NCBI RefSeq assembly: GCF_001689125.2 | Contig: NZ_CP015405.2 | Location: 4,366,501 to 4,430,500, forward strand | Direction of reading: 5' to 3' | From: Blautia pseudococcoides | GTDB lineage: Bacteria > Bacillota > Clostridia > Lachnospirales > Lachnospiraceae | DNA: 64,000 bases | Shown here: one piece after another, positions 12,933 through 63,884 of the stretch | Position numbering within the stretch: position 1 is the first letter of the stretch | How the letters are laid out: the number at the start of each line of letters is the position of its first letter | The notes under the pieces: model-generated | What the model saw: the letters and a program-made list of their open reading frames with translations, nothing else | What the model was told of the DNA's origin: nothing | Database searches by the model: none | Made by a program: the position numbers and the translations under genes

Positions 12933-12985
12933 CAGAGAATAAAAAGTGTCGGTTTATGAAGAAAAGATGAAAATATTAATTTTTG

Positions 12986-13012
12986 TTTACAAATTGCTTT
13001 ATCTGTTATAAT
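12986..13012 (+). promoter_or_regulatory. Promoter upstream of murA leader
   Basis: TATAAT (13007-13012) has an upstream TTGTTT (12983, 18-nt spacer) or TTTACA (12986, 15-nt spacer) as the -35. It would give a leader of roughly 300 nt before murA. Confidence 0.5.
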
Positions 13013-13028
13013 ATAATATTTAAGTCGT

Positions 13029-13083
13029 AGACTATCTTAGCAGGAAGCTAATTAAATAACCTGCCGGGAAGTCTGTCTTTTAT
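13029..13083 (+). terminator. Hairpin with U-rich tail in murA leader
   Basis: The nested stems AGACT/AGTCT (13029-13033 / 13070-13074) and GCAGG/CCTGC (13040-13044 / 13060-13064) are followed by GTCTTTTATT. It could be an attenuator or the end of a short RNA. No known riboswitch class was recognised. Confidence 0.4.
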
Positions 13084-13110
13084 TCGGAAAGAGGTAAAGT
13101 AAATGTTACT

Positions 13111-13238
13111 ATTCAGCGGGTCTGCGCGTTTACTGCACTGACCGTAAGAAAACGTTCAACAGCCGAGTGAAGATCCCATCGCCAAAGGCGGTCCTGCATG
13201 GATTTTTGCCCGTAACTGTGAAGGCACTGAACAGTTAC
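13111..13238 (+). repeat. Two-hairpin interspersed repeat, copy B (best preserved)
   Basis: It runs from ATTCAGCGGGTCTGCG to the terminal stem GTAACTGT (13212-13219) / ACAGTTAC (13231-13238), a perfect 8-bp stem with an 11-nt loop. A CGCC-aaa-GGCG hairpin (about 13180-13191) and GGATTTTTGCCC precede it. It lies wholly between the murA promoter and the murA start, so it should be transcribed. Confidence 0.65.
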
Positions 13239-13319
13239 AAGCAAATTTGAAGACGAGATTATGTTTTCTGGTACCGAGTATACCGGCGGGGAGCATAAAT
13301 AAAATATAGAGGTGTGAAT

Positions 13320-37207: not shown

Positions 37208-38602
37208 TTAGCAGATAGCAGGTGTGCAGATCGCGGCATCCGCGCAGGTACACATCTGTTCCAGAGTGAAGACCTTTACAGTGTCCCCGTAGATAGTTTC
37301 CATGCCTGAGACAAAGTCCGATTTGGCAAAAAGATAATACCAGATTGTACTGTGCGGAAAAAGGCTGGCATGTTTCTGAAGACTCTGCAGGCCCTCCAGG
37401 TCGATCCATTCATCTGTCCAGAAGCAGTCACCAAGCAATATATTGCTGTCGTCAGCGGCGGCAATAGGTACATACTCTGTACGCTTTCTGGTTGGGTGCT
37501 GTCCCCACCAGCTTCCTGCATGGTTAAAAGGAAACGGAGCCTGGCCGAGGCTGCTTATCAGATCCAGATATTGTCTGCAGATATCTTCAAATGTTTCTCT
37601 AGAGTAGCGGTCCAGGGAAGGAAGGATTTCCTTGTCAAATACCTCTCTTCCGCATCCCATTTCAATGGCACTCCGGTGCGGGGCAGCAAAAGTATACCAG
37701 AAACGAAATACGCCGTCAGAGGTCCGGTAGAGTGTCCTGCGGCTTCCGGCTTCCTCAGTGACGGGAATTATCTTATCCACCAGACCAAGTAGATCCAATG
37801 TGTTCATAAGGCTTCCCGCAGCGCTGGGAGTCAGTTCTGTGCGCTCACAGATTTCATGCAGTTTCCGCCTTTGGGCGCCCAGGCACAAAAGGGCAGAGTG
37901 CGCCAGTTCCGGTTCGGACAGATGCACCTTTAAAAATTTGGCGGGGCGGCGGTAAAAAGCGCCTTCCTCTGTGAAGAACAATTGATACAGGTTTTCCTGA
38001 AAAGGTTTATCGTTGATGAAATAGGCCAGATAGCCGGGAACCCCTCCTGTTATGCCGAAGATCCAGATTTGCTGTTCCACGGGGAGATGGCGGAAAAGCT
38101 GGCGTGTCTCGAAAAAGGTAAAGGGTTTCAGTAGCAGAGGATTGGCGGTCTGGGTGTGTTCTTTTTCGTAAAGAGATGCAGGTTTACATAAGATAATAAA
38201 AAGCCGGGAGTTTTTCCACTCTTTTGTCATATAGGACTGGATCAATGTGGAAAGTCTTCTGTTTTTATTGATCAGATGTGGATAATCGTCAATAATAAAT
38301 AGGAGAGAGTCTTCCCTGGAGGATTTTCCAATGGTGCGGAAAAGTTCGGCGAATCTTTTGGCTGCCTTTAGTTTTTCTAATGGGCCCAGCACGCGGAGGG
38401 CCTCCTTTTTTAATGCCAGAAAGTTTTCATTGTCCGTGGTCTCCAGGGGCTTAAAGTACAAAGTCCGCTTGCCGGCAGAAAATTGTCTGAGAAGGGTAGT
38501 CTTTCCCATACCGGAATCACAGTAGATGGCTGCAGACTGAAAACAGTTCTGCCCATACAGTTCATTTAATTTTGCAAGATGGTTATCTTTATCTAAAAAC
38601 AT
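37208..38602 (-). CDS. AAA ATPase of the archaeal-type/DUF234 family
   Basis: A 464-residue cytoplasmic P-loop ATPase. Walker A DSGMGKTTLL (about 29-38) and Walker B LLFIIDDYP (about 100-108) are clear. A winged-helix region follows (about 235-275, LHEICERTELTPSAAGSLMNTLDLLGLV), then a DUF234 C-terminal nuclease-like domain (about 320-455, WWGQHPTRKRTEYVPIAA). In this family the C-terminal domain resembles restriction endonucleases, and roles in defence or mobile-element biology are suspected but unproven. It stands alone with no partner toxin or nuclease gene. Confidence 0.8.
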   Translation of the reverse strand: MFLDKDNHLAKLNELYGQNCFQSAAIYCDSGMGKTTLLRQFSAGKRTLYFKPLETTDNENFLALKKEALRVLGPLEKLKAAKRFAELFRTIGKSSREDSLLFIIDDYPHLINKNRRLSTLIQSYMTKEWKNSRLFIILCKPASLYEKEHTQTANPLLLKPFTFFETRQLFRHLPVEQQIWIFGITGGVPGYLAYFINDKPFQENLYQLFFTEEGAFYRRPAKFLKVHLSEPELAHSALLCLGAQRRKLHEICERTELTPSAAGSLMNTLDLLGLVDKIIPVTEEAGSRRTLYRTSDGVFRFWYTFAAPHRSAIEMGCGREVFDKEILPSLDRYSRETFEDICRQYLDLISSLGQAPFPFNHAGSWWGQHPTRKRTEYVPIAAADDSNILLGDCFWTDEWIDLEGLQSLQKHASLFPHSTIWYYLFAKSDFVSGMETIYGDTVKVFTLEQMCTCADAAICTPAIC

Positions 38603-41036: not shown

Positions 41037-41226
41037 AGATACAGAGGCCGGTACAACGGGAACAGATGCATTCATAGGGGGGATCCTGTGGATGCATTTT
41101 GTTTACTGTTTACAGTCTTATGGTATTAAAATTAGACTGATTCACAAAATCCTTGACTTTCTCTGTGAAAACATGGAAAATAAAAATATAAACCAAATAT
41201 AAGTATAAATGAAATACAAAATCTTG

Positions 41227-41258
41227 AGACAGCATATCAAAGGGCTGTCTTTTTTTTT
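41227..41258 (+). terminator. Intrinsic terminator directly before the five-gene operon
   Basis: AGACAGC / GCTGTCT (41227-41233 / 41244-41250) is followed by nine T. The ribosome site of the first operon gene begins 3 bp later (41262). It may end the two-component transcript or act as an attenuator for the operon. Confidence 0.8.
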
Positions 41259-41273
41259 ACGGGGAGGGTTGGG

Positions 41274-42620
41274 ATGAAGGTATATTTAATAGGGATGGCT
41301 GCTATGCAGACGCTCCACGCTCCGGGTATGTTGACGGTTTTGAATCAGGAGAAAGTGGCATTCAGACAGAAGATCCCGGCAGTGGTGTTACTGGAAAGGG
41401 CGGCACAGACCGCGGAGAATGACCCGGGGCTTCCAACAGGGCAGCTGGATATATTTCTTAGTGACGAAATAGAGAGATTGGGTATAGACCCCAAAACAGG
41501 GAGAGACGCAAACGCTGCCTTTTCTCTTGATCTTCTCATACGAACAAGGGAACGGCTGCACAGGTATATAGAATCAGATCTCATCAGATGGAGGCCCCAC
41601 ATAGCGTCTGAACTTGCAGCGGCCCGTTTCCATCTTATAAAAATATTCAGGGAGCCTCAGCAGAGATTGTGGATGGCCTGGGAGGAAGACCTGTTTTATG
41701 AATATACGGCAGCAGCATGTATGAGAGCCAGCCATATGACTAACAGCGATGAGAACCTGTTTGTGGTTCTGGCGCCGGAATTCATGCTTGCTGACTGGCC
41801 CAGGGGCGGAGGAGAGCCGGTTTATTTTGAAGTGGCAAGGGATTTTCTTTCCGGGAGTTGTCTGTACGGGACGCTCAATCTGCGTAGGAACGGCCATCCC
41901 AGAGTGTGCTTAAAGGATTTACAGCAGGGATTCAGACCCTTCCGCCGCCAAAACCAGGTAAAGATACTCCAAGTGCCGGGGACCATTATATGGATGCAGG
42001 ATGAGTTGACTCCGGCAGGTTTTAGAGTCATTTATTACAATACGGCCCCTGTATTCTGGGAAAACAAATGTTGGTTTGCCTGGGATAAACAGACGATTTC
42101 AGACGAGGATGGACCCTGCTCTATGCAGGCACACAGACATATGGTCACCATATCTTCTCCGGGTGAAGATCTTCCGCTGCCTGAGAGGTGCCAGGTCAGT
42201 ACACTTACCTCTCTTGTTGTGGAAAGGCCCCCATTCATGGCTGTCACTCCGGTTTTTGAAATCTTTCCTTTTGGTCACAGGTTTACCGCAGGGCTATCCA
42301 TATGTAAAGATGCCGGTAGACCCGATATTTTGGGTCTGAAAGATGTGGATATACATATCACAATTGGTTATGGGGTCAATTTTGAACCGGAAAAGCCCGG
42401 AAGGGTACGCGCTTCCCAGCTTTATCTTTTTTGTGACAAAGACTCCATTGTGAGTATTCTCGATATACATGATGACCGCCTGTGGGGAGGCCCTGCTCCT
42501 CATAGATGGACTGCGATGATACCGGCTGTGCTAGTGGAGCGCAGGGATGAGGCAGACCAAAATGCAGATGGAAATATGTACATTTGCAGCCATGTAGGTG
42601 AACTGAAAGAACATGACTGA
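41274..42620 (+). CDS. Divergent nitrilase-fold (carbon-nitrogen hydrolase-like) protein
   Basis: A 448-residue protein, not a recognised named family. Residues 160-380 fit the nitrilase pattern: E169 in FVVLAPEFML, PGTIIW, YYNTAPVFWENKCWFAWDK with K272, and C344 in GLSICKDAGRP. This gives the Glu-Lys-Cys triad in the right order, with longer spacings than usual. The first 160 residues are an extra, largely helical part. No signal peptide or membrane span. GGGAGG lies 6 nt before the ATG, and the next gene starts 14 bp after its stop. It is likely the enzymatic member of the operon; an amide, nitrile or acyl substrate is unknown. Confidence 0.65.
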   Translation: MKVYLIGMAAMQTLHAPGMLTVLNQEKVAFRQKIPAVVLLERAAQTAENDPGLPTGQLDIFLSDEIERLGIDPKTGRDANAAFSLDLLIRTRERLHRYIESDLIRWRPHIASELAAARFHLIKIFREPQQRLWMAWEEDLFYEYTAAACMRASHMTNSDENLFVVLAPEFMLADWPRGGGEPVYFEVARDFLSGSCLYGTLNLRRNGHPRVCLKDLQQGFRPFRRQNQVKILQVPGTIIWMQDELTPAGFRVIYYNTAPVFWENKCWFAWDKQTISDEDGPCSMQAHRHMVTISSPGEDLPLPERCQVSTLTSLVVERPPFMAVTPVFEIFPFGHRFTAGLSICKDAGRPDILGLKDVDIHITIGYGVNFEPEKPGRVRASQLYLFCDKDSIVSILDIHDDRLWGGPAPHRWTAMIPAVLVERRDEADQNADGNMYICSHVGELKEHD

Positions 42621-42634
42621 AGGAGGCATGTCTT

Positions 42635-45600
42635 ATGGGGAAGAAAAGAAATATAGCCGGATTTTTGTCAGGTGAAGAGAGACAGTGTAAGATATTTGCG
42701 GTAGATGAGGGCCTTCCGTTCTGGCTTGTGCAGATGTTGGTAAGCCTTCCGGAACAAACCCTGACGATTGAAAAAAGCGATGACCAACTGCAGATTCTGG
42801 AGGAGGGCGCCAGGGAGCGTATGCGTGTACAGACTGCCACGGATGGGGAGACAGAAGGCATTGCGGTCATCTGCCACAATCCCCTGGAAAGTCTGCATGT
42901 ACAGGATCTTCTGACCGTTGCCGGAAAAAAGATCATAGATGTCCCGGAATCGTTTCGTTTTCTGGAAGAAGCAGCGTCAAATCTGGACAGCTCCTTTTCC
43001 TTTATCCTGTATTCGGATCAGGAAGAGACATGTCTGGAAAATTGTTTTATCAGTTATCCAAAAAGCATCACGCTGCTGCCTGATATCCTAATTCTCGATC
43101 AGGTACAGATGATGATCATGAGGACAGGACCAGCTTTTTTCTATAACCTGAAGGGGTATTTTTGTATAGGAGGTGCTGTGGAACTGACGGCAGATGTCAG
43201 GTGGGGGGCCGGTCGGGAAATCACGGTTCGTATATTATCAAAAGAAGGTGTATTTCCGGGGCTTTCTGCGTTTATCAAATGGATCACCGGAAAAAGCGAT
43301 GCAGAGGAACTGGTATCCTGGCTCCCGGATTCCCAGGAAATCCTGGATGCTGCACTGTGCGGGGCAGTGATCATCCTGGATGAGAAGGAGGGGTGTTTAA
43401 AGAATTTTACAGCAGAACTGCAGCTGACACTTTGGCATATGGTATTTCTCGTAGATTTTGACTGGGCCGACAAAACCATAGAGGGCAGCCTGAAGACAGA
43501 CAGCCCGGTTAAGATAAGCAGGCTGTTTTCGGAGCTGACAGGGGGAAGTATGGAGGCGGAAGCATCCGTTGCAGACCTGGAACTGGAGGACTGCAGGGTA
43601 AAGCTGGACCTTGAAGGGCAGGCGTACGGGTTGTACTGCAGTCTGAAGACAGACTGGCAGATAGGCCTGCTGAGACTTCAAAATGTGCAGATGGAAGTGC
43701 AGTACCGGAGAGAGGAAGGAATCTGTTTTAAACTTGCCGGGATGATGGATCTGGGAAGTGGTAAGGTGCTGACCGCGGGCGCTTCTTATGATGCGGCGGC
43801 AGATGACTGGGTAATATCGGGAGGCTTAGGTCTGGGGTTTGGTGTCACAGTGCTGGACCTGGCAGAGGCGCTGGGAAAGGCAGTGCCAGGCCTATCCCTG
43901 CCTGGATTCCTGGGCTGTATATCCCTTCAGGAATTTCAGATGGAATACCATTTGGCCCAAAACAGCTGTATGGTATCCTTCAAGGGAAAAGCAGAGCTTG
44001 AAAATCCGGTCAGTCTGAATGAGATTCCTTTGCTTGCAGAACTGCTGCCCCGGGAATTTGTCTATGAGGATGAAGGAATAAAGGTGACGTACAGGGATGG
44101 CAGCATAACAGAGGGCTGTATTTCTCTGGCCTATTCAAATGACAACTCAAAAGAGGAGGAACCATTTTCGACGGCCGGTACCGCCGTTGTGCAGGAGAGG
44201 CAAGAAGAGAAAACGCAGGGACAGGGCGAAACAGGTGCTATTTGTACAGACGAGGGTGTCCGCTGGTTTGATGTACATAAAAATATTGGTACGGCCGCCC
44301 TTCACAGGGTTGGGGTATCCATGGAGGACGGCGTTATCCGGGTGTTGTTGGATGCTGGGATGAAAATGGGGCCTGTGGGAGTGGAGATAAAAGGCTTGAC
44401 GGCCGGTTATGATATAACGGACCATTCTATTACTGGGGGACTTATAGGTCTGGCTCTGTCTTACAACACGGAAGCCCTTGCGCTGGAAGGCGGAATCTAC
44501 AGGGAAAAGACATCAGCTCCGGGTATTCGTCTGAAGCTGGGGGGAACCGTCACAGTGAAAGCCGGAGGGTGGAAGCTGAGCGGCATGGCATCCTATGCGC
44601 TGCTTACGGATAACAGCTCCAGCCTTTTCCTGTTCCTGAACTGTCAGGCTGCACTTGGTGGGACGCCGGCTTTTATGTTGACGGGCCTGATGGGAGGACT
44701 TGGGATCAACCGCCGGCTGCGTATGCCTGAAATCGGGGAAGTGGAGACGTTTCCGCTTTTGACCATGGATGATAAAAAGACAGGAATGCAGATCCTTTCA
44801 GAGCTGGAGTCTCCCAATGGGCAGAAAGAACCGTGGCTGGAAGTACGAAAAGGGGATTACATGGCAGCGGTGGGCATTGAATTTACGTCCTTTGAACTCC
44901 TTCACGGTAAACTGCTCCTTTCTCTCATGTTAGGGGAGGAGATACAGGCAGCACTTTTGGGGAGTGGTGAGATGACATTTCCGAAAGGTACCGGGCGGGA
45001 TCAAGCGTACGCCTACATAAAAATCATGATGGCCGCAGTATTGAAACCGGGTCAGGGGATATTTACACTTGATGCGGCTATCTCGGATGATTCATTCCTT
45101 TTAAGCAGGGACTGCCATTTGACCGGGGGTGCGGCTTTTTATACCTGGTACGGTAAAAATCCCCATGCAGGAGATTTTGTGGTGACCGTGGGCGGATATC
45201 ATCCGGCTTTCCGGATTCCGCAGCATTATCCCACTCCATGCCGGGCAGGGTTTCACTGGAAGGTGAGTTCCTGTATCAGTGCAAAGGGGGAAGCATATCT
45301 GGCAGTCACGCCGTCCTGTGCCATGGCAGGGGGAAGTCTGGAGTTTGTCTTTGAGAAAGGGGATCTGCGGGCATGGTTCACGGCATATGCAGACATGGTC
45401 ATGCGGTGGCACCCCTTCTTCTTACAGGCGGAAATAGGAGTGGAAGTGGGGGCATCCTGCCGTCTGAACCTGCTCTTCTGCCATAAGACCATCAAACTGA
45501 CCCTTGGGGCTGCGCTGCAGTTATGGGGTCCGCCTGTGGGAGGCATTGTCACAGTGGATCTGTGCGTGCTGAGTTTTGATATCAGCTTTGGCAAAAGGAG

Positions 45601-46318
45601 AGACGGCGAATGCCTGGTACTGGATTGGAAAGGATTTTGTGAGGTACTACCCGCTCCCAAAGAGATTGTGCACGTAGTCCCCAGGGAGGGCCTGCAGCCG
45701 CAGCAGGATCAGGAGGAGCCGTGGATCGCGGACAGCGGAACATTTGAATTTGCTACGGAGACGGTCATTCCTCTTGGGAATATCTCTGTTCGCCCAATGG
45801 GACTTCCGGAGGTTTTTTCGGAAGACAGGATCACTGTGATCTCACCTGATAAGAGGCAGGGGCCGCCGGAGCAGTTTGGCTTTGAGACAGAGGAGATACA
45901 CGGAGATTTTCCGGAAGCACTCTGGGGAAGACCCATTCAGGGCACCGGCAGTCCGAAAGCCAACATGCTGGGCGGTCTGGTAAAAGGATACCGGATTGCA
46001 TCTCCAAAAGCTTTAAACGAGGGCGCAAAAGACATAGAAGATTACAGGGAGGCTCTCATTACCTGCACCAAGCTGCCCAATCCGCTGGCTGAGGAAAATC
46101 AGGAATCGGATATGTTCAGGCCCAGTGAGGGGGAGGAGGCTTTTGTTTGTCTGGAGAGGATAGCGGCAGAGCAGGAAAAAGCCAGCCGTCTGGATGCAGC
46201 AACGCAGCTTGCCATGTTTTATGACGGTCCGTCGGGAGACTTCGACTTGATAGGTAAGAATTTGTATTCTATATTCCGCGACCGTCCGATGTTTGTAAAA
46301 GGAGGAAACCGTACATGA
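42635..46318 (+). CDS. Very large DUF6603-like beta-rich protein
   Basis: A 1,227-residue protein with no signal peptide or clear membrane helix. The region of about 650-990 matches my memory of DUF6603: GTPAFMLTGLMGGLGINRRLRMPEIGEVETFPLL (from 676), then VTVGGYHPAFRIPQHYP (near 850), AYLAVTPSCAMAGGSLEF, DLRAWFTAYADMVMRWHPFFLQAEIGVEVGAS and LWGPPVGGIVTVDL. The rest is rich in alternating hydrophobic and Gly residues, as in long beta-sheets, solenoids or amphipathic barrels. AGGAGG lies 8 nt before the ATG. It overlaps the next gene by 4 bp (ATGA). Function unknown. Confidence 0.72.
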   Translation: MGKKRNIAGFLSGEERQCKIFAVDEGLPFWLVQMLVSLPEQTLTIEKSDDQLQILEEGARERMRVQTATDGETEGIAVICHNPLESLHVQDLLTVAGKKIIDVPESFRFLEEAASNLDSSFSFILYSDQEETCLENCFISYPKSITLLPDILILDQVQMMIMRTGPAFFYNLKGYFCIGGAVELTADVRWGAGREITVRILSKEGVFPGLSAFIKWITGKSDAEELVSWLPDSQEILDAALCGAVIILDEKEGCLKNFTAELQLTLWHMVFLVDFDWADKTIEGSLKTDSPVKISRLFSELTGGSMEAEASVADLELEDCRVKLDLEGQAYGLYCSLKTDWQIGLLRLQNVQMEVQYRREEGICFKLAGMMDLGSGKVLTAGASYDAAADDWVISGGLGLGFGVTVLDLAEALGKAVPGLSLPGFLGCISLQEFQMEYHLAQNSCMVSFKGKAELENPVSLNEIPLLAELLPREFVYEDEGIKVTYRDGSITEGCISLAYSNDNSKEEEPFSTAGTAVVQERQEEKTQGQGETGAICTDEGVRWFDVHKNIGTAALHRVGVSMEDGVIRVLLDAGMKMGPVGVEIKGLTAGYDITDHSITGGLIGLALSYNTEALALEGGIYREKTSAPGIRLKLGGTVTVKAGGWKLSGMASYALLTDNSSSLFLFLNCQAALGGTPAFMLTGLMGGLGINRRLRMPEIGEVETFPLLTMDDKKTGMQILSELESPNGQKEPWLEVRKGDYMAAVGIEFTSFELLHGKLLLSLMLGEEIQAALLGSGEMTFPKGTGRDQAYAYIKIMMAAVLKPGQGIFTLDAAISDDSFLLSRDCHLTGGAAFYTWYGKNPHAGDFVVTVGGYHPAFRIPQHYPTPCRAGFHWKVSSCISAKGEAYLAVTPSCAMAGGSLEFVFEKGDLRAWFTAYADMVMRWHPFFLQAEIGVEVGASCRLNLLFCHKTIKLTLGAALQLWGPPVGGIVTVDLCVLSFDISFGKRRDGECLVLDWKGFCEVLPAPKEIVHVVPREGLQPQQDQEEPWIADSGTFEFATETVIPLGNISVRPMGLPEVFSEDRITVISPDKRQGPPEQFGFETEEIHGDFPEALWGRPIQGTGSPKANMLGGLVKGYRIASPKALNEGAKDIEDYREALITCTKLPNPLAEENQESDMFRPSEGEEAFVCLERIAAEQEKASRLDAATQLAMFYDGPSGDFDLIGKNLYSIFRDRPMFVKGGNRT

Positions 46319-48510
46319 ATGAGTCGGAAAACCTGCGTCTGTATGCATCCATGGTACCCCAAATGGATGCGGGAATATGGACGGTAGAGATAGAACAGGA
46401 GCTGAGTCTAAATAAAGATGCACAGCGAAAAGCTGTCAATGAAGAAAAGATCCGTGTCCGCCGTCAGATATTGGTACCCTCTGCAGTTTTTTCTCTGACT
46501 GAGGGGATGGTGGTGAACCGTTGTCCTCTGCCCGGTACCAAGGCAGCGGTGACGGACTGTGTTCCCCACATTATATTAAAGGGTCCGTTCCTTCCATGGA
46601 TTGGGCGCTGCAGGTGGAAGGAAAAGGCAGTCCCATCGCTGGGACTTCTCGTCCTGACAGAACAGGAGCTTAGGGAAAACGGATGTGGGACACTTCATAG
46701 GATGAAGGTGAAGGATTATCTGGGTGGAGTAGGAAGGGACAATGGGGTGTTCCGTCCGGATTATACAGATATACCCAAAGAGATGGCCGAACAGGAGTGT
46801 AGTTATATACGAATTGCAGGTCCACTGGCAAAAAAGGTACTGCCCCACATGGATGAGCTGTCTTACTATGCACACTGCCGACAGGTTTATATAGGGAATA
46901 AGGCTGAGATGGGTCTGGATCGGGACGGGTTATTCTCTGTGGTCATGTCGCCCAGGGTTCCCCAGTATATTCCCGGACAGGTACAGTCTTATCATACCTT
47001 CCTGATCGTGCAGGACGGTCTGTTACGGGAGGAGGGGAAAGACAGCCCGTTCCAGGATTTCATAGTCCTGTACTCCTGGGAGTTTCAGGTATCAGGGCAG
47101 ACGCCCTACAGTTTCAGAAGATTCTGTGAAGACCTGACAGAGAAAGATGCTGATAGGATGCTTCTTCGTCTTTCCGGAGATATCCCTGACGGGGCAGTAA
47201 AGGAAAGGGTAAAAGAGGGGTTTGTGCCGCTGCTTTACCATGCCAGGACTGGCGATGAAGGGATGTGCTTTTACCGCTCACCTCTGATACCCGTAAGCGG
47301 AAAGGAGATTGAGAAGAAGGAACCTTTTTTTACGGCAGATGCGGCTATGATCTATGATGCACAGAGTGCTGTCTTTGATTTATCCCTGGCCTGTGCCTGG
47401 GAGGCAGGCAGATTGTCAGCTGTATCGGATCAGGTATACGTCAGACAGATTCTGGCGCTCCGCAAAAAAGCCCAGCAGATCGCGGATGTGCTTTTTTCCC
47501 GGATGCTGTCCAGAGCAGCAGAAAGCGGAAAAAAAGATACTCTGGACCGACCGGAGGAATTTGCCCAAAGTGCCAGAAAAGAGCTGGAACAACTTGGGAA
47601 AGAGGAATGGGACGGTTTGCTGCAGGGCGGGAAAGATGCGGAGACACTGGTCATGGCACTTAACAGGACAGGATGGGATACAATAGGACAGGGGGAAGGG
47701 CTGATGAGGCTTGCAGGGGAGGCGTCCTGTATAACGGGGGAGGTCATGACAGAGACGGAGGTTCTTGTGAGGGCATTTCTCAAAGAGAATTATATGCTTT
47801 TACTGCCCCTTTTAGAGGAAGAGACAGCGCCCCTTGCAGCCTGGCTTGGCAAACTGCTGCTGCTGTACCCTGTACCGCAGGATTATCTGCTTCCCCATCC
47901 GCAGCTGCTTCCCAGGGAAAGTGTTCGTTTCTTTTACCTGGATGAAAATTGGCAGAGGGCCGCCTTCGACGGAGCTGTGAGTCTGGGGCTGGATTCCAGC
48001 AGACAGGCAGATTTTAACTGTGTGATGGAACGGATACTCTATGAAAGTACCAGAAAGGAGATGCTGGCTTACCGGGCCGCCCTTTATGGTGAGACAGTGC
48101 CTGGTGATGATGGGGGGCCAAAAGGAGGCTTTATGATCCGGAGCCATCTGGTTTCCAGTTGGCCTACACTGTCGCTGCAGGCTTATGACAAGGAGGGAAA
48201 GAAGCTGGCAATCCTTCGCATGCAGCACCTTGCGGGGGAGACGCTTCTGTGCATACTGGACGGAATACCCGCAAGGATCCAGGTGGAGGAGCCGGGGGAG
48301 AGCCTTCAGATGAAGATTCTCCATAAGGATTATGAAGTGTTTCGGAGTGATGCCCATGTCCTGGATCTGGATAAAGCGGGCAGTGGGCTGCTGGGACAGA
48401 TGGCTAAGAGGCTGGGAAAAAAGGCAGAAGAGATAGACGTGCTGACCTTTGTGACAGAACTTCTGACCACGGGAGAACGTACCGTATTTGAGAAGGAGGG
48501 CGGGAAATGA
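46315..48510 (+). CDS. Uncharacterised 731-residue operon protein
   Basis: A soluble-looking protein without signal peptide or membrane span. The C-terminal part (about 510-680) has LLYPVPQDYLLPHPQLLPRESVRFFYLDENWQRAAFDGAVSLG, then GGFMIRSHLVSSWPTLSLQAYD and LLCILDGIPARIQVEEPGE. I recall a like pattern (VPF-x-YLVP, LPPESIRFF, W-x-x-A-x-x-DGA) in uncharacterised large proteins of actinobacteria and other phyla, so it is probably a conserved domain. Residues 370-490 are helical. It overlaps both neighbours by 4 bp and follows AGGAGG. No function is assigned. Confidence 0.7.
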   Translation: MNESENLRLYASMVPQMDAGIWTVEIEQELSLNKDAQRKAVNEEKIRVRRQILVPSAVFSLTEGMVVNRCPLPGTKAAVTDCVPHIILKGPFLPWIGRCRWKEKAVPSLGLLVLTEQELRENGCGTLHRMKVKDYLGGVGRDNGVFRPDYTDIPKEMAEQECSYIRIAGPLAKKVLPHMDELSYYAHCRQVYIGNKAEMGLDRDGLFSVVMSPRVPQYIPGQVQSYHTFLIVQDGLLREEGKDSPFQDFIVLYSWEFQVSGQTPYSFRRFCEDLTEKDADRMLLRLSGDIPDGAVKERVKEGFVPLLYHARTGDEGMCFYRSPLIPVSGKEIEKKEPFFTADAAMIYDAQSAVFDLSLACAWEAGRLSAVSDQVYVRQILALRKKAQQIADVLFSRMLSRAAESGKKDTLDRPEEFAQSARKELEQLGKEEWDGLLQGGKDAETLVMALNRTGWDTIGQGEGLMRLAGEASCITGEVMTETEVLVRAFLKENYMLLLPLLEEETAPLAAWLGKLLLLYPVPQDYLLPHPQLLPRESVRFFYLDENWQRAAFDGAVSLGLDSSRQADFNCVMERILYESTRKEMLAYRAALYGETVPGDDGGPKGGFMIRSHLVSSWPTLSLQAYDKEGKKLAILRMQHLAGETLLCILDGIPARIQVEEPGESLQMKILHKDYEVFRSDAHVLDLDKAGSGLLGQMAKRLGKKAEEIDVLTFVTELLTTGERTVFEKEGGK

Positions 48511-51500
48511 GCGGGGATAGAGTAAAATCCTTAGAACTGGAAGCCATGGTGGTGGATGACCTGACGGGAGGGAACAGTATATTCCGCCGCTGGGAATTTA
48601 ATTATGCCGCACTGGACAGATTTTATTCACCTGAGCCCAGTTCCACCAACAGAAATAATGAGATAGAGGAGCGCGGCGTCTGGATACGTTTTGTCCTCCC
48701 GCGGGAACTCCGTACAAAGAAGGAAGATATGCAGGATTATCCCTGCATACCCAACCGCTGGCTGATCATCAGGAGTGACGGGATTATGGGGAACGTCAAA
48801 TCATGGGTCCTTGAGGGGGATTGTCCGGTATCGGATCATATGGAGCAGGATGAGAAGTCTGCAGCTCTGGAAACATCCAGTATGTATCTGATCTCAGAGC
48901 AGCAGAAACAGTTCTGGGAAAACTCCAGTGACCCCTATCGGAAAAATGCATTGACCAGCAGTGCAGCGGCAGGGGGATATCATGTGAATATGGGTGTGGC
49001 ATTTGAGGCTGCCAACTGGGGGGAGAGGGACGACAGTCCGCTGTTCCTGACAGCATGCGCACCGGGAAACCCCATATTCAGTGCGTATGCTGCACATAAC
49101 AGGAACATACTTTCATTTTTTGATGAGATGGAAGGTATGGATAAGGGGGAACTGGATTATTTCGTTGTGGGCTGGTATTCCAATTTTCAGCTGCCGGACG
49201 TGTATGCAGGCCGGATAAGCGGTATCCATTGGAATAAAGGAGGCGTGGCGGTCACAAAAGAGCAGGATATTTACAGGGACGAGCTTGCAGAAATTGTACA
49301 GGGCCAGAAGCTGAACGTGGCAGTCGGAGCAAGCACGGAGGAAGCATTCCGGGCGTATCTTAACAGACGTTTCACTATGGATGGAAAAATCCCGGAGGAG
49401 AGGTCCGGGGAACTGGATGCGCTGCTGGCAGCCCTCTATTATAATGTGATGGATCATAAGACCAGCCCCGCCGGAAGGAACCGTCTGGAAAATATCATCC
49501 ACGATAATAAGTTTGAAAGCAGGTCAGGGGGAACAAAGTATGTCATCTTATCCGAGACGGAGGGGCGGGCAGAACTTACACAGAAGGAACAGGATCTTCT
49601 TGACAGGCTCAATCGTTTTGACGATGAACTGGAACTACTCACAGCCATGCGTCAGCGGCTTTTGGAGATGTGGTGGAAGAAGGGATACCTGAAAACGCTG
49701 CACCGCCATAAAAATCCCCGTAAGCCGGAAGACTATGATATGTTTTTTGATGTGACCCAAAAGGACAGCCTGGTATCTTCTGTCATGGCAAAGATGCATG
49801 AGGTGAGAATGTTGTATGAATACCTGCCAAAAGAGGGGGAGAAGCTTGAACAATACGGAAGAGACCACGGAGTAAAAGACGGTCATATATTAAAAGCACT
49901 GCCAAAGCCAAGATATTGGAGAGAGGGAAACCCTGTGATCCTGATCAACGGCACGGAACCGGCAGAAGATTTGAAGACCGGGGAGTATGAGCTTCTTCCG
50001 CAATATAACTGCAGCCAGGTACCAAAGTGTCCGGAGCTTCCGGAGGAACTGCAGTCCATATTGGAAATTGTACGCAGTGAAGCAGCAGACGGGCAGGGGG
50101 AGATAAAAAAGGAACAGTCAGACTGGTATCAGCCGTGGAAGCCGGTATTTATGGAATGGATAATAGAATATCAGCCTGTCAATTTGGAGAGCTTTTTCTT
50201 TGATGGGACAGATTATCAATACAGAGGAAGTGAAAGCGGGACAGGGGAACTCTGGCAGTTTGGGGGAATCTCTCATTTGGACGCCCACCATAAATCTGTG
50301 TTTGCGCAGAGGATCAGCCAGTTATCAGAGCAGACAGGCATCAGCATCGGACAGGCTCTTAAGGAAATCTCCGGGTGGAAGTTATTGAGCCAGGAACTGG
50401 TCAGCCTGAAAGACGGTATGGCACAGCAGGATTACAGAACATTCAGGCGTCCGTACCGGGAACCTGTAGGCGACAGCGGATACACGCTGGATGAGATTTT
50501 GGGATTTTCCGGGAATGAGGAAGGGTTCTGGGAGGCTTCAGGAGGCAGGCTGGAGAGTGTTCCCCTTATAAGCGGTGACAGCTATCCTCCGTTTACGCCA
50601 TTCCAGGCGGGGCGGGGGAAGATTGCAGAATTATTCTTGTATGATGCGTTTGGCCGTGTCATGCCCCTGATTCTTTCCGGTGAGGAAAAGGGGCTGTTCC
50701 AGGAGAAGAATTTTCCTTTGATCCGCCCGGAGTACATGGCAGCAGGGAGGACAGGAGGATTTTCAAGGACAGAGAACAGAAATGAGTTTTGGATGAAACC
50801 CAGGCTTCTTCAATACGGTAGACTGCATTTTGAATTCCTGAGGACAAAAGAAAAGGAGATGGTCCATGGATATATCATTGTGAACCATATGAACCGCAGT
50901 CTTCTTCTCTACGCTCCGGATGGAAGTCTGGCAGGGGAGCTGATTGGAATTTATACGACTTCTGCCCGGAGAAAAGTCATGTTCCGCCCGGCCGGGAGAA
51001 GCGGAGTAAAAACAACAGAAGAGTTAATAGAGAAATACCCGGTACTGGGCTCTGTGGCGCAGGCCAGAAAAGAGGGGACACCGGAGGCGTTTTGGGAATT
51101 CCTGGACACCATCGACAGAGCTATCTGGACGATCGGGCAGTTCGGGAGTGATTCAGATGAGGATATTGCATTGAGCTTTGGACGTCCACTGGCACTTCTG
51201 AGGGCAGAAAGCTTCATTGAACTGGATGGGACGCCAAGGCAGGATGCCGGGTGGAAAGGCGGTTTCCAGGCAGAGCAGGAGGCGCTTTGCGGCCGGAAAT
51301 TTCCTGTACGCATCGGGGATCAGAGTATACGGGATGACGGAGTGGTGGGATATTTCCTGGAGGACAGATATGATGAGTATCACAGTATCGCCATGCCGGA
51401 GGGAAAGAGCGGAAACATACGGCAGATTGGTCCCGTTGGAACACCTGACGGCAATTACGCGGAGGCAGGTTATGGAAAGAAAGGAGCAGCAGTGATGACT

Positions 51501-51836
51501 ATACTGGCAGATCCCAGAGGAACCATCCACGCTTATACAGGTATTTTTCCGGTAAAAGAAGTGAGAGTTCCACAGGAGGAGATCACAGGACCTCTTCGCA
51601 GGATGGAGGTACAGTTCCAGGCAGGGCCATTTGTCACAAGGATCATTCCGGGAACGGATGGCACCCATGCGGTGCCGGAGATAGGGCTTCCAGCTTTTCC
51701 GCACAGTCACGGGACCTGGAGTTATGGAGAACAGGAGGAGGAATACGGACTGACGGTACCTGAAAACAAGGGAGACCAGGGAGAGGACAGGGTATCTGTC
51801 CGGGAAGGCATTTTAAAATATTTTCAAAATAAATAA
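48507..51836 (+). CDS. Uncharacterised 1,109-residue operon protein
   Basis: A large protein without signal peptide or membrane span. Near the N-terminus GVWIRFVLPRELR and YPCIPNRWLIIR (about 54-88) resemble a pattern I recall from unstudied proteins (HLHWALPDALTRG, VPNRWLV). A Lys/Glu-rich helical segment follows (about 350-440, ELTQKEQDLLDRLNRFDDELELLTAMRQRLLEMWWKKGYL). The centre contains FMEWIIEYQPVNLESFFFDGTDYQY. AAGGAGGGCGGG stands before the ATG and the start overlaps the upstream stop. Likely a structural or scaffold partner of the other operon products, by context only. Confidence 0.7.
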   Translation: MSGDRVKSLELEAMVVDDLTGGNSIFRRWEFNYAALDRFYSPEPSSTNRNNEIEERGVWIRFVLPRELRTKKEDMQDYPCIPNRWLIIRSDGIMGNVKSWVLEGDCPVSDHMEQDEKSAALETSSMYLISEQQKQFWENSSDPYRKNALTSSAAAGGYHVNMGVAFEAANWGERDDSPLFLTACAPGNPIFSAYAAHNRNILSFFDEMEGMDKGELDYFVVGWYSNFQLPDVYAGRISGIHWNKGGVAVTKEQDIYRDELAEIVQGQKLNVAVGASTEEAFRAYLNRRFTMDGKIPEERSGELDALLAALYYNVMDHKTSPAGRNRLENIIHDNKFESRSGGTKYVILSETEGRAELTQKEQDLLDRLNRFDDELELLTAMRQRLLEMWWKKGYLKTLHRHKNPRKPEDYDMFFDVTQKDSLVSSVMAKMHEVRMLYEYLPKEGEKLEQYGRDHGVKDGHILKALPKPRYWREGNPVILINGTEPAEDLKTGEYELLPQYNCSQVPKCPELPEELQSILEIVRSEAADGQGEIKKEQSDWYQPWKPVFMEWIIEYQPVNLESFFFDGTDYQYRGSESGTGELWQFGGISHLDAHHKSVFAQRISQLSEQTGISIGQALKEISGWKLLSQELVSLKDGMAQQDYRTFRRPYREPVGDSGYTLDEILGFSGNEEGFWEASGGRLESVPLISGDSYPPFTPFQAGRGKIAELFLYDAFGRVMPLILSGEEKGLFQEKNFPLIRPEYMAAGRTGGFSRTENRNEFWMKPRLLQYGRLHFEFLRTKEKEMVHGYIIVNHMNRSLLLYAPDGSLAGELIGIYTTSARRKVMFRPAGRSGVKTTEELIEKYPVLGSVAQARKEGTPEAFWEFLDTIDRAIWTIGQFGSDSDEDIALSFGRPLALLRAESFIELDGTPRQDAGWKGGFQAEQEALCGRKFPVRIGDQSIRDDGVVGYFLEDRYDEYHSIAMPEGKSGNIRQIGPVGTPDGNYAEAGYGKKGAAVMTILADPRGTIHAYTGIFPVKEVRVPQEEITGPLRRMEVQFQAGPFVTRIIPGTDGTHAVPEIGLPAFPHSHGTWSYGEQEEEYGLTVPENKGDQGEDRVSVREGILKYFQNK

Positions 51837-51855
51837 TGTATAGGAGGAAGGGTGA

Positions 51856-53250
51856 ATGGAAGAATTAAAGTTTTTACATGAGATGGCAGCGGAGACGGCG
51901 GTTCTGGCTTACGGCAGCACGGCAGCAATCGGCGGGAGGATGACAGACACAGGCGGTGGAAAATATTATTGCAGGTCCGTTTTCCTGGATATACCTGTTG
52001 GAAACGGAGCGGACGATCTGTTTTTGAAGGGTACTTCGGTGACGATCACTTCCCACACAAAGGGCTGGACTGCACTGGAAGCAAGAGAGAGCAGGAGAGT
52101 AGGAGAAGCCACTGGGTATGTGGAGCTTGGCCTGCAGTATAGAGGAGGGAAGGCGCTGCTTACAGAGCCGGTACAATTTACATTGACAGGCAAAGTGAAC
52201 AATGCCTCCGGTACTGCGGGAATCGTTTTTACAGATGAATATTCCCCGGCGGAAGAGGAAGCGTGGGAGGAGGAGGAGAGTATCCATGAATTTACGAAAG
52301 GCCCGGTTCCGTTTTATCTGAAAAATCTGATGACTGCAAAACCAGATGCTCCCACAGTCCCGTGCTGTGATTTTTCCCCGGGGCAGCCAATACGTTTTAG
52401 TTGGGAGGGGAGTGGGACCAGCTATAAAATCTATAAGAAGGGGGAGGCAGGGCCCATCTATACAGGCAGGGATACTTTTTATGAATATGGTGCGGGGGTA
52501 GTGAATGATACCACATTTATCCTGGAAGCGGATCTGTCCGGGAATGCCCGGACGGAGGGGGAGGAGAAGAAGCTGGCATATAAGGTCCTCTATGATACGA
52601 TCACAGTCACAGTCCGGGACCCCACTCTGCACAAATTGACGGTGGAGGGAAATCTGCGGGCAATGTCAGGGCTGAGCGTGGGAGGATATATGTCCTCTGC
52701 CACAGGGGCGGTCCTGAATGGAAGCAATATAATTAAAAATGCGGAATTAAATGGGACCATCAGTGCAGCAAACGGTATTATACATATGATGAACAATGCT
52801 GCCAGTCTGCCTCTGAAATTCTGGAGTCCGCCTACTACCGTTTATTTTAATACGGACGGCATACTGTATGGTCTGTTTAATGCCGGATATGAGAGTGATA
52901 CCGCATATGGAGAGATCAGTGCCGTTCCCGATTATGGGCCATATGGGTGGGACATCACTTATTATGTAAAGCTCATGGGAGTAGACGGGCGGCCGTTTTA
53001 TATTCCAAAAGCGGCTAATATTGTTCTGCCGGTCAGTGCAGATCGTGGCTGGCTTCTAATACAGCATGGCGAGAAGCTCGGAAAAGATTATGCATTCAAT
53101 TGGTGGTTCGTGCCGTTTGGGGCAGGTAAGGTGCAGAATGGGGAACTTTTTACACTGACGCAGGAGAAGGGAGAATGGCAGAAGAGAGAAATTGATAAAT
53201 TCAATAGAAGACTGAGAGAAAGAGGAGGGAGCCTGCCGGTCACGGAGTAA
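51856..53250 (+). CDS. Uncharacterised 464-residue protein, possible fibre-like
   Basis: Last gene of the operon, 19 bp after its neighbour, with TAGGAGGAAGG before the ATG. Residues 1-130 are beta-rich. A fibronectin/Ig-like stretch at about 160-245 (PIRFSWEGSGTSYKIYKKGEAGPIYTGRDTFYEY) resembles domains that bind or join beta-sandwiches. At about 258-320, LTVEGNLRAMSGLSVGGYMSSATGAVLNGSNIIKNAELNGTISA shows short repeats like those of phage tail-fibre or trimeric beta-helix tips. No signal peptide. The role is unknown; an exposed tip or adaptor is a guess. Confidence 0.65.
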   Translation: MEELKFLHEMAAETAVLAYGSTAAIGGRMTDTGGGKYYCRSVFLDIPVGNGADDLFLKGTSVTITSHTKGWTALEARESRRVGEATGYVELGLQYRGGKALLTEPVQFTLTGKVNNASGTAGIVFTDEYSPAEEEAWEEEESIHEFTKGPVPFYLKNLMTAKPDAPTVPCCDFSPGQPIRFSWEGSGTSYKIYKKGEAGPIYTGRDTFYEYGAGVVNDTTFILEADLSGNARTEGEEKKLAYKVLYDTITVTVRDPTLHKLTVEGNLRAMSGLSVGGYMSSATGAVLNGSNIIKNAELNGTISAANGIIHMMNNAASLPLKFWSPPTTVYFNTDGILYGLFNAGYESDTAYGEISAVPDYGPYGWDITYYVKLMGVDGRPFYIPKAANIVLPVSADRGWLLIQHGEKLGKDYAFNWWFVPFGAGKVQNGELFTLTQEKGEWQKREIDKFNRRLRERGGSLPVTE

Positions 53251-53314: not shown

Positions 53315-53610
53315 TCATGAGAAAGGCGTTGAGAAGAGATAGTAAGCGTGTCCGAATGTTCCAGAGAGAAGCCGGGTGGTGCGAGGCTTTATTTAGGGGC
53401 GCTGAACCGGTCTTTGAGCTGCGGGCTGAAAGGTGACGAGTAGGTTTTGACGGGTATCCTCCGTTATGGGGATGGAGTATCGGATGGCCATGATTTATGA
53501 GGATCGGCGTCCCGTACTTGTGGAGTGCAGAATGAAGATTCTGAAATCAGGTGGTAACACGGATATTTGTTTATTCGCCCTGAACTGGCTAAGCTGGTTC
53601 AGGGTTTTTG
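53315..53610 (+). ncRNA. T-box leader RNA (proline) with terminator
   Basis: Stem I features are seen: AGAGAGAAGCC (about 53365) and the distal part closing near 53435. A possible specifier CCG lies at 53407-53409 in GAACCGGTC. The T-box core AGGTGGTAACACGG (53549-53562) is a recognisable variant of AGGGTGGTACCGCGG. The terminator CCCTGAAC / GTTCAGGG (53578-53585 / 53597-53604) is followed by T5-G-T6. Uncharged tRNA-Pro would favour the antiterminator and switch on proS. Confidence 0.88.
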
Positions 53611-53693
53611 TTTTTTCTGCCGCTCCCTGTCCCATCGGTCCGGGCAACACACCACGTTGCCCGGACCGATGGGACAGGGAGCGGCAGAAAAAA
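53611..53693. repeat. 38-bp perfect inverted repeat
   Basis: The arms 53611-53648 and 53656-53693 are perfect inverted copies with a 7-nt loop (ACACCAC). The core is GC-rich and bounded by T6 and A6 runs. It directly follows the T-box terminator and lies 204 bp before proS. The remaining 53694-53897 stretch holds only the proS ribosome site. Confidence 0.9.
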
Positions 53694-53897: not shown

Positions 53898-55613
53898 ATG
53901 AAGATGGAGAAAGTTGTGGGAGAGAGGTTTCGGGAGAGGCCTGCGGATTGTGTGATTGATAGTCATGCTTTGATGGTGAGAGGCGGGTATATGAAGTATG
54001 TGGGGAATGGGATTTATTCGCAGTTTGGGCCGCTTAGGAGGATTTGCAGGAAGATTGAGGGGATCATCAGGGAAGAGATGGACCGGATCGAGGGACAGGA
54101 AGTGCAGTTTCCGGTGGCTATGCCGGCTTCGCTTTGGGAAGAGTCGGGGCGGTATGAGAGTGTGGGGAGTGAATTGCTTCGGTTTACAGATAGAAATGGG
54201 AGTAAGATGGTGCTGGGGATGACACATGAGGAGGCTTCGGTGCAGCTTGTGCGGGAGTATGGGAAGAGTTATGCCAAGTATCCGTTTATGATCTATCAGA
54301 TTCAGACTAAGTTTCGGGATGAGGCTAGACCCAGGGCCGGGTTGATCCGGGTGAGGGAATTTACTATGAAGGATGCTTACTCGTTCCATACTTCCCAGGA
54401 GGACCTGGAGGAATATTATCAGAAGTGTTATCATGCTTATGAGAGGATTTTTGCACGGGCCGGGATTCCGGAGACCATTGCTGTGGCTTCGGATTCCGGG
54501 ATGATGGGCGGCAGTCTGTCTCATGAATTTATGCTGCTGACTCCTGTCGGGGAGGATTCTATTGCAGTATGCCCGGAATGTGGGTTTAGGGCAAATGTGG
54601 AGATGGCTGAGAGTATCACTGAAAATGTACAGGATGATGTGCAGAAGGAGCTGGAACTTGTGTATACGCCGGATATGCATACGATTGAGGATGTCTGCGG
54701 ATATTTGGATATGCCAAAGGAAAGGTCCTGTAAGGCGGTGGTTTATCAGAAGAATTCGGATGATGGGTTTGTGGTGTTGTTTATCCGCGGGGATTTGGAT
54801 GTGAATGAGACGAAGGTCACTAATTTTCTGAAAAGTGAAATACGTCCCGCAGAGATCACACAGGAGTCCGGTCTGCATCCAGGATTTATTGGGCCTTTTG
54901 GTCTGAAGGGGGATTTCACGGTCCTTTATGATAACTCTCTGAAGAGCGGAATGAACCTTTCCTGCGGCGGGAATATTGAGGAACATCATTATACGGGGCT
55001 TTGTATGGAGAGGGACTGCCCGGGTGCAGAGTATCATGATCTTGCAAAGATCACAGAGGGCAGTGTGTGCCCCAAATGCGGCAGGCATTCAATCCGGGTG
55101 TCCAGGGGCATTGAAGTGGGTAATATTTTTCAGCTTGGTACAAAGTATACGGAGAGTATGGGGATGCAGTACCTGGATAAGGATGGGAAGGAGAAGTATC
55201 CTCTCATGGGATGTTATGGGATCGGTATTGGAAGGCTGGCGGCTTCTGTCTGTGAGGCGCATCATGATGAGTATGGACCAATCTGGCCTATGGCTATTGC
55301 TCCCTGGCAGGTGCATTTGTGCTGTGTAAGACCGGATAATAAGGAAGTGAAGGAGTTTGCAGATAAGCTTTATGAGGAACTTCAGGGACGCGGCGTGGAG
55401 GTGCTTTATGATGACAGAAAGGTGAGCGCCGGGGTTATGTTCTCAGATGCGGACCTGATGGGAGTGCCCATACGCGTGATCGCAAGTCCGAGAAATATGA
55501 AGGAAGGGTGCTGCGAGATTGTTACCAGGGATAAGCAGGTTCAGAAGAAGATTGTGCTCACGGATGTTGTAAGTGAAATTATGAAGATGATCTTATGCGC
55601 AGATAAGGAATGA
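53898..55613 (+). CDS. proS: Prolyl-tRNA synthetase, bacterial type
   Basis: A 571-residue class II enzyme that charges tRNA-Pro. Motif 2 FRDEARPRAGLIRVREFTMKDAYSF and motif 3 GCYGIGIGRLAASV are intact. An insertion of about 230-390 resembles the YbaK editing domain that clears Ala-tRNA-Pro. The C-terminal anticodon-binding domain runs from about 470. Two CxxC pairs (CPECG near 224, CPKCG near 392) could bind zinc. GGAGG lies before the ATG. Regulation is by the T-box leader. Its stop overlaps the next open frame, suggesting coupling to the decarboxylase. Confidence 0.94.
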   Translation: MKMEKVVGERFRERPADCVIDSHALMVRGGYMKYVGNGIYSQFGPLRRICRKIEGIIREEMDRIEGQEVQFPVAMPASLWEESGRYESVGSELLRFTDRNGSKMVLGMTHEEASVQLVREYGKSYAKYPFMIYQIQTKFRDEARPRAGLIRVREFTMKDAYSFHTSQEDLEEYYQKCYHAYERIFARAGIPETIAVASDSGMMGGSLSHEFMLLTPVGEDSIAVCPECGFRANVEMAESITENVQDDVQKELELVYTPDMHTIEDVCGYLDMPKERSCKAVVYQKNSDDGFVVLFIRGDLDVNETKVTNFLKSEIRPAEITQESGLHPGFIGPFGLKGDFTVLYDNSLKSGMNLSCGGNIEEHHYTGLCMERDCPGAEYHDLAKITEGSVCPKCGRHSIRVSRGIEVGNIFQLGTKYTESMGMQYLDKDGKEKYPLMGCYGIGIGRLAASVCEAHHDEYGPIWPMAIAPWQVHLCCVRPDNKEVKEFADKLYEELQGRGVEVLYDDRKVSAGVMFSDADLMGVPIRVIASPRNMKEGCCEIVTRDKQVQKKIVLTDVVSEIMKMILCADKE

Positions 55614-62900: not shown

Positions 62901-63701
62901 CTAATACAGATCCTTCCGCATATTTTTTAGGGAGGGAACCAAGTGCCGGGCCTTGATGCTGTCCTCCGGGGTGACAGGGACGAGTATCAGCCGGGAGGAT
63001 TCATCTCCGTCTGCCAGTACTCTGCCGAAGGGGTCACAGGCGAAACTCTGCCCAATAAAGGTGTCTTTTATGTACTGGCTGCATCCAAGTACAGTCATGC
63101 CGTTCTCAATAGCTCTTGCCGCCAGAAGGGTTTTCCATTGGACCGCTTTCATATCCCCCTGTACCCAGGCTGAGGGATAAATAAAAAATTCAGCACCCTG
63201 CAATGCGGCACTGCGTGCCAGCTCCGGAAAGCGCAGATCATAGCAGGTGCCTAACCCCAGCTTGCCAAAGGGTGTTTCCAACGGGGAAAAAAGAACGTCC
63301 CCGGCAGCAGTGTGATCTGACTCATGCCAGTCGAAGGCATCAAATAGATGTGTCTTTCTGTATGTTCCCTGCAGGATACCCCTGTCATCCAGAAGGATCA
63401 GGGTGTTGAAGCACTTATCTTGGCTGCGCTTAGGGGCAGCTTCATTCATGCCGAAGAGAATCCAGATGCCAGATTTTTGTGCAAGCCTGCTCATACAGGA
63501 GACAAAAGGGCCTTCTATGCTCTGGGAATGGTTTACATAAAGAGTTGGATCGCCGATGCAGGGATACATGAAATATTCCGGGAACACGATAAGGGCAGCC
63601 CCGGCATTGGCAGCCTGGTGAATAAAATATTCTGCTGTTTTCAGATTTTCCACTGTGTCCGGAAGGGAACCGCACTGGGCAAGTGCAATGGTATGGGGCA
63701 T
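62901..63701 (-). CDS. Carbon-nitrogen hydrolase (nitrilase superfamily)
   Basis: A 266-residue cytoplasmic amidohydrolase. The triad is clear: Glu in VFPEYFMYP, Lys in GTYRKTHLFDAF and Cys in LGTCYDLRFPEL. The length and the late WKTLLAARAIENGMTVLGCSQY place it with the omega-amidase/Nit-type branch that removes ammonia from omega-amides or repairs deaminated glutathione. The start is the second ATG (63701), 8 nt after AGGAGG; the first at 63707 is only 2 nt from it. It is transcribed alone, opposite to its neighbours. Confidence 0.88.
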   Translation of the reverse strand: MPHTIALAQCGSLPDTVENLKTAEYFIHQAANAGAALIVFPEYFMYPCIGDPTLYVNHSQSIEGPFVSCMSRLAQKSGIWILFGMNEAAPKRSQDKCFNTLILLDDRGILQGTYRKTHLFDAFDWHESDHTAAGDVLFSPLETPFGKLGLGTCYDLRFPELARSAALQGAEFFIYPSAWVQGDMKAVQWKTLLAARAIENGMTVLGCSQYIKDTFIGQSFACDPFGRVLADGDESSRLILVPVTPEDSIKARHLVPSLKNMRKDLY

Positions 63702-63884
63702 AATCATTACCTCCTGAAGAAGTTTTTTGCTATTGTAGCAGATGTACAGGGAAAGTCAAGAGCCCAGGGGAAACGGAAGGAGAAAATCCCATCGCAAAAA
63801 CTAATTGAATAACAGAATCGGCTCATTAGAATAAAATATCCTGCAGAAACATATAGTAGAGAAAAAGCTTCCGGAGGCGTGAAC

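Follow-up and report, generated by a model that had tools for sequence, protein, structure and literature searches.

Contractile injection systems and Tc-type systems consist of giant proteins made in the cytosol, with fibre-like parts and interchangeable enzyme cargo, and apolipoprotein B (apoB) wraps a lipoprotein. Here, we compare with these systems a five-gene operon found in a stretch of 64,000 nucleotides of Blautia pseudococcoides (contig NZ_CP015405.2, positions 4,366,501 to 4,430,500 of the forward strand), which is called the window in the following. Its genes, termed A to E, encode large proteins of which one, B, is a full-length member of DUF6603 (PF20248), described in Pfam as a family of unknown function and not named in any paper within the literature searched. 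In many phyla, relatives of B, C and D are found as an ordered core. The position immediately before B is a swapped slot that is linked to this core, and a particle with interchangeable enzyme cargo is our tentative explanation. The features of the operon are:

41274-42620, plus strand: gene A, 448 amino acids (aa)
42635-46318, plus strand: gene B, 1,227 aa
44273-45760, plus strand: DUF6603 domain of B (PF20248), residues 547-1042
46315-48510, plus strand: gene C, 731 aa
48507-51836, plus strand: gene D, 1,109 aa
51856-53250, plus strand: gene E, 464 aa

A check of the open reading frames (ORFs) of the window returned these five plus-strand genes as an operon, each starting with ATG and successively spaced by +14, -4, -4 and +19 bp, so that the layout, lengths and spacings given in a preceding sequence-only reading are correct. 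The ribosome sites that it had claimed are likewise found, as purine-rich motifs, before all five genes (GGGGAGGG for A, AAGGAGG or AGGAGG for B to E). In agreement with the same reading, neither a membrane span nor a signal peptide is apparent in A to E by a hydropathy scan, a crude test in which the highest mean Kyte-Doolittle value over 19 residues was 1.63 (in B).

The scan with a profile of D delivered 50 loci in named genomes. C is present in all 50, as one gene or, in some lineages, split in two, and it immediately precedes D in all but L032, in which a single gene separates the two. B is present in 47; the contigs of the remaining three (L013, L016, L017) have no sequence before the C-terminal part of C. 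Of the 47 loci with B, 46 show the order B-C-D, and L042 has C-D-x-B instead. E was found in the same locus in 24 of the 50, with weak matches in three more (L026, L027, L039) and in three copies in L008 and L012. Relatives of A occur in two named loci, those of a Lachnospiraceae metagenome-assembled genome (MAG; L003) and of a Methanoculleus MAG (L038), the latter with the order E-A-B-C-D. Going by the titles of the records, we take the 50 loci to belong to Bacillota, Actinomycetota, Bacteroidota, Chlorobiota, Rhodothermota, Pseudomonadota, Gemmatimonadota, SAR324, Acidobacteriota, Desulfobacterota and one archaeal MAG; many of them are MAG records, and the counts are uncorrected for possible contamination. 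Since relatives of B, C and D keep the same order elsewhere, joined by E and A at some of the loci, the set is not a product of chance. B-C-D is a well-supported, near-obligate ordered core across phyla, and E is an accessory protein of this core. The co-occurrence of all five families proposed from the sequence thus holds for B, C and D (47 of 47 reachable loci), which travel together instead of being scattered without each other, and fails for E (24/50) and A (2/50).

DUF6603 is uncommon and patchily distributed. With a threshold of E<=0.001, it was detected in 2 of 61 genomes (window and relatives), in 3 of 391 genomes of the host class (one below cut-off), in 14 of 117 in the family of a Chitinophaga genome, in 29 of 147 in the order of a Streptomyces genome and in 7 of 148 in the family of a Paenibacillus genome (one below cut-off). 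Seven plasmid records match it as well, three of them being one Streptomyces clavuligerus plasmid; the five plasmid loci examined all carry B-C-D, and four carry E. With loci already in the set, pieces at contig edges and short fragments left out, 54 genome loci with B were fetched, 35 of the window's type and 19 of a second type; at a weak DUF6603 place, L061, no B was obtained. Both C and D are present in 33 of the 35 window-type loci; the sequence of L169 ends before D, and L166 has two intervening genes between C and D. In the second type (e.g. L060, L085, L086, L089, L160), the B profile derived from the window scores weakly (E 3e-29 to 1e-8). The layout is the same, with a variable gene before B: 16 of 19 loci have B, then a gene of about 830-1,280 aa and a further one of roughly 1,370-2,100 aa (truncated in some cases where the region ends), while L151 and L152 contain one more gene and L170 is cut. 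By profile comparison, B of this type is related to that of the window (99.8%) and the N-terminal part of C is common to both (97.3%), whereas the third giant protein has no detectable relation to D.

The gene directly before B differs from locus to locus. Among 106 mapped loci the gene caller found such a gene in 93; it overlooked at least the DUF4135 gene of L014. Of the 93 genes, 65 lie on the same strand as B and within 400 bp of it; no more than 30 bp separate 37 of these from B, and the 65 genes fall into 36 BLAST clusters. One could argue that only B-C-D, with or without E, is the functional unit, the gene before B being a passing neighbour and A an ordinary enzyme. This is in line with the 28 of 93 loci that have no close same-strand gene (for 17 of them, this is due to a gene on the opposite strand) and with A-like genes in just 2 of the 50 named loci. 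The control positions and the short gaps speak against it: the slot gene is on the strand of B in 76 of 93 loci compared with 53 of 90 and 47 of 77 for the next two positions upstream, and five slot clusters (23 genes) recur across groups, compared with three (6 genes) and one (2 genes) at the controls, the groups having been assigned by the analyst from titles and sampling sets. In addition, A-like genes precede B in both the Lachnospiraceae and the Methanoculleus MAG. As same-strand position and cross-group recurrence both exceed the controls, the slot is linked to the core, and we consider a merely neighbouring gene unlikely. A swapped, often hydrolytic slot is well supported, and A is one of its occupants and not a fixed subunit.

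The Pfam scan of the slot comprised 61 proteins (A of the window, 59 of the 65 slot genes and the gene of L014) and left out five of six flavobacterial proteins from one cluster and one protein of 86 aa. It matched 47 families, of which 25 are listed; among the matches listed are eight metallo-beta-lactamases, four WD40 proteins and three subtilases, and many slot proteins have no family match at all. Further occupants, and one gene upstream of a slot gene, come from single scans:

slot of L049 and L084: class 3 lipase
slot of L093: PhoD
slot of L060: M23
slot of L002 and L014: DUF4135
slot of L090 (over cut-off) and L089 (below cut-off): Nal1-type, presumably trypsin-like
second gene upstream in L151: Trypsin_2, just below cut-off
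slot of L020: RIP, below cut-off
slot of L088: Exo_endo_phos, below cut-off
slot of L008 and L012: TAGT glycosyltransferase, below cut-off
slot of L136, gap 351 bp: racemase
slot of L143, gap 379 bp: SteA-like gene

The history of the slot was followed on a tree of B, C and D (FastTree on profile-aligned columns; 85 tips, 50 of them labelled by the analyst with 26 labels). Across this tree there are 29 changes of the slot label; the minimum would be 25, and shuffled labels give 39.1 on average. Slots are accordingly partly inherited and partly swapped. The neighbours of the window carry DUF4135 (L002), the unassigned cluster of L008 and L012, or a nitrilase-like A (L003, L038). Together with the window they form a clade (window, L002, L003, L008, L012, L038) that has a support of 1.0, but the branch that joins the window and L003 to L008 and L012 has one of only 0.78.

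A hint at a common carrier comes from the ends of the slot proteins. The subtilase-type (L085, L086) and the Nal1-type proteins (L089, L090) share only their C-terminal 90-125 residues, and the slot protein of L151 carries the same C-terminal domain. In L151 it is found in two successive genes before B (3393-7585), and L089 has it both in its slot gene and in a short ORF immediately upstream (12344-14332, minus strand). When unrelated catalytic domains carry the same tail domain, this usually points to their being loaded onto a common carrier; the shared domain is a possible docking domain, as far as can be judged from sequence. The profile comparison of slot families covered 15 of 25 clusters and gave, beyond this protease pair, one middling row (cluster of L005 with L083, 51.5% over 98 columns).

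For A itself, a nitrilase fold had been suggested. E169, K272 and C344 are invariant in an alignment of three sequences, and we take their order to be the Glu-Lys-Cys order of the nitrilase catalytic triad. Relatives of A beyond those in L003 and L038 are P0018 and P0019. Likeness to the nitrilase superfamily lies in the order and surroundings of the three residues and in a match to a profile of other nitrilases over 45 columns around C344, which is marginal (21.6% probability, P 1e-3). In the reverse direction, the nitrilase profile gave a best E of 0.0019 among five A sequences (P0019) and 0.41 for A of the window. What sets A apart is that no Pfam family matches it at E<=1, CN_hydrolase (PF00795) included, and that it has no solved relative, whereas three genes of this genome match CN_hydrolase over its cut-off, including one in the window (62901-63707, minus strand; 1.6e-50). 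This gene does not match A, the comparison of A with a single nitrilase reached 0.2%, and that with the 14 other slot families 0.8% or less. Of the suggested fold, the residue pattern stands and the profile support is marginal; a nitrilase-type fold of A is plausible but unproven.

Database searches placed none of the five proteins in a described system. Pfam assigns only B over a family cut-off (PF20248, E 1e-148, 496.5 bits with a cut-off of 27, profile positions 1-501 of 502), which bears out the DUF6603-like region seen earlier; for A, C, D and E the profile search proposed for all five proteins found no family over cut-off. NCBIfam gave no family for A to E, PADLOC none and hence no match to a known anti-phage defence system, and PHROGs nothing convincing (all E at least 0.29; at least 0.35 for C). 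A sequence search of solved structures had no row for A, C and E, and its rows started at E 0.088 for D and 1.6 for B. These results bear on the idea that the operon is a divergent relative of described injection or toxin-complex systems (contractile injection, Tc-type or polymorphic toxin). No sheath, tube or baseplate gene was found among A to E by Pfam, NCBIfam and PHROGs, nor an RHS/YD-repeat shell protein by Pfam and NCBIfam, nor any phage, tail or secretion family. B and D, the two proteins searched, have no match in 50,697 phage records, and D has no relative in the viral contigs of IMG/VR by a scan with two short peptide patterns. A literature search on polymorphic toxins and giant proteins gave no lead among the papers listed. 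With no convincing sequence relative among solved structures either, we regard such an origin as very unlikely; the lack of phage and secretion genes claimed from the sequence is upheld for A to E, and no assignment to a described injection apparatus emerged.

More can be said on the predicted fold of B. The model of residues 28-1227 has a mean predicted local distance difference test score (pLDDT) of 72.4, and the DUF6603 domain forms in it a long antiparallel beta-meander with ten-residue pLDDT means of mostly 74-97. The alternation of hydrophobicity along its strands exceeds that of shuffled sequences, as it also may in ordinary soluble beta-sheets, which alternate too. B is thus predicted to be a giant amphipathic antiparallel beta-sheet. 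In the model, the DUF6603 domain aligns with porin barrels and apoB-100 at high root-mean-square deviation, the rows being of a common beta-meander type. From here, two other explanations can be drawn. In the first, our main rival, B would wrap a lipid or polyketide-like product in an intracellular body which C, D and E complete, the slot enzyme would act on this cargo, and nothing would be exported. The fold rows, common and of high deviation, and the alternation that soluble sheets share lend it little, and proteases, M23 and PhoD in the slot would be hard to explain in a lipid body; we hold it to be rather unlikely. In the second, the sheet of B would close as a barrel in a target membrane, with C, D and E as the carrier of a pore-forming, toxin-like complex; this seems improbable.

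As to neighbouring genes, the one after the core is conserved, with one BLAST cluster in 22 loci of several phyla. Proteins of 600 aa and 690 aa follow the core in a flavobacterial, acidobacterial and related lineage, and members of one BLAST cluster come next; two proteins of this cluster were scanned, both of the flavobacterium L035. In L035 a Collar protein (9.9e-19) is encoded upstream of the core and a Peptidase_S74 protein (4.7e-5) downstream, and both domains argue against the hydrophobic-cargo body. A further lineage has an AMP-ligase (L027, L031) or a polyketide synthase (PKS; L030) after the core. Genes of 2,320-2,344 aa lie downstream of the core in Parapedobacter (L030, 14223-21185) and Paracoccus (L040, 15407-22441); that of L030 is a multidomain AMP-ligase-KS-AT-KR-ACP-TE gene according to Pfam, its counterpart in L040 being matched by BLAST only. 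On a Paenibacillus polymyxa plasmid (L053), two annotated baseplate-V genes and a DUF4280 gene (1-4449) are located about 9 kb upstream of B-C-D.

D is a multi-domain core protein without a known family; structure comparison gave it no clear known fold, and no fold row stands out. Several aligned relatives of E contain LTVxG-type repeats, which we assume to resemble tail-fibre repeats. Homologue searches with A and with E returned three proteins each, including the query's own or a near cluster. P0019 (A), P0003 (D) and P0022 (E), each of which lists a longest contig of 41,531 bases, probably represent one relative with the same operon.

Taken together, we favour, at a probability somewhat below even, the view that the operon encodes a multi-protein particle made in the cytosol with interchangeable enzyme cargo. 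B, C and D would be its core, in which the very large beta-sheet of B, with one hydrophobic face, could form a shell, groove or barrel that C and D scaffold. E may be an accessory fibre-like part, possibly for attachment, and A the carried enzyme, in whose place other lineages would load other hydrolases or catalytic proteins. The loaded particle would leave the cell and act on something outside; lysis or an unrecognised exit route is proposed because no signal peptides are apparent. This reading is preferred on account of the ordered core in many phyla, the linkage of the slot, the C-terminal domain shared by the proteases, the Collar and S74 domains near the flavobacterial core, the patchy distribution and the occurrence on plasmids. 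From this we infer a physical assembly of the proteins, the loading of A into it and the exit of the particle from the cell. The sequence-only reading had described one assembly with one enzymatic member: the genes do belong together and one product is enzyme-like, while A as a fixed subunit has to be given up, E is accessory rather than fixed, and the particle or shell keeps its conjectural standing.

Several observations weigh against the particle, in addition to the loci without a close same-strand slot gene. The overall model of B is uncertain, with a predicted template modelling score (pTM) of 0.53, and the fibre likeness of E comes solely from the repeats. WD40 proteins, the racemase and the SteA-like protein are unlike cargo. 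The five loci with the shared C-terminal domain all belong to the second type, and in the slot comparison no such domain links A to the other slot families. L082 has no C before the contig end (D is present), and D lies upstream of B in L082 and L140. Among the genes scanned none was identified as an immunity or release gene, no search having been aimed at them, and the PKS and AMP-ligase beside one lineage would fit a biosynthetic or storage role equally well.

The surroundings of the operon in the window and in close relatives include the following features:

41226-41258, plus strand: hairpin followed by a run of nine T, the end of which is 15 nucleotides before the start codon of A
53320-53585: T-box leader (RF00230, 106.5 bits), between E and proS
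53898-55613: prolyl-tRNA synthetase gene (proS), downstream of the T-box
L191 4101-6521, minus strand, and L192 14916-17270, plus strand: glycoside hydrolase family 3 (GH3) genes at the place of the operon in two relatives, ahead of T-box and proS

The stretch 41225-41260 folds at -10.5 kcal/mol with a loop of 10 bases, and the hairpin was absent from a search list limited to loops of 8 bases. Judged by its sequence, it may be the terminator of an upstream transcript or an attenuator of the operon, which may need read-through. A two-component system directly upstream had been noted, and its position is correct. However, in G009, the closest among the relatives searched (proS 94% identical), metK, the DUF234 ATPase, the kinase and the regulator are kept, and a GH3 gene stands between regulator and proS where the operon is absent. 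Since the two-component system occurs there without the operon, a partnership of the two is not supported, as judged from this one relative. In G005 a GH3 gene precedes the T-box and proS, and the regulators are not in the preceding 18 kb. Because relatives carry a GH3 gene at this place, the site of the operon is an exchangeable one. Between T-box and proS a long inverted repeat was read by eye (53611-53693; arms of about 37 bp at 53611-53647 and 53657-53693), part of which aligns in both orientations in G005 (L192). The DUF234-type ATPase gene of the window (37208-38602, minus strand) matches the candidate defence family PDC-S27 (7.5e-18).

The three giant families are found with each other in, going by record titles, some ten phyla of bacteria as well as in an archaeal MAG, and only one of them is named in Pfam, by a placeholder. 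The swapped slot offers a testable logic, a carrier with interchangeable enzymes, and a short list of these enzymes. The host is, as we assume, a culturable gut commensal, and if so, genetics and proteomics are feasible. In the case of a particle the operon would stand for a new protein machine, and in the case of a lipid body for a bacterial counterpart of lipoprotein. With apoB-100, B shares 5% identity in the fold alignment, and it differs in that it accompanies C and D and has no apparent signal peptide; apoB-like particles of bacteria were not found in the literature search. A wider proposal, a previously unrecognised, cross-domain class of enzyme-delivery particles built on B-C-D, in which the amphipathic sheet of B would form the hydrophobic shell or channel, with E as accessory fibre for attachment and interchangeable enzymes from the slot, and which would be unrelated to contractile and RHS systems, has to be called doubtful. 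From contractile injection and Tc-type systems the operon differs in that none of their families is found in A to E, but its general logic is alike.

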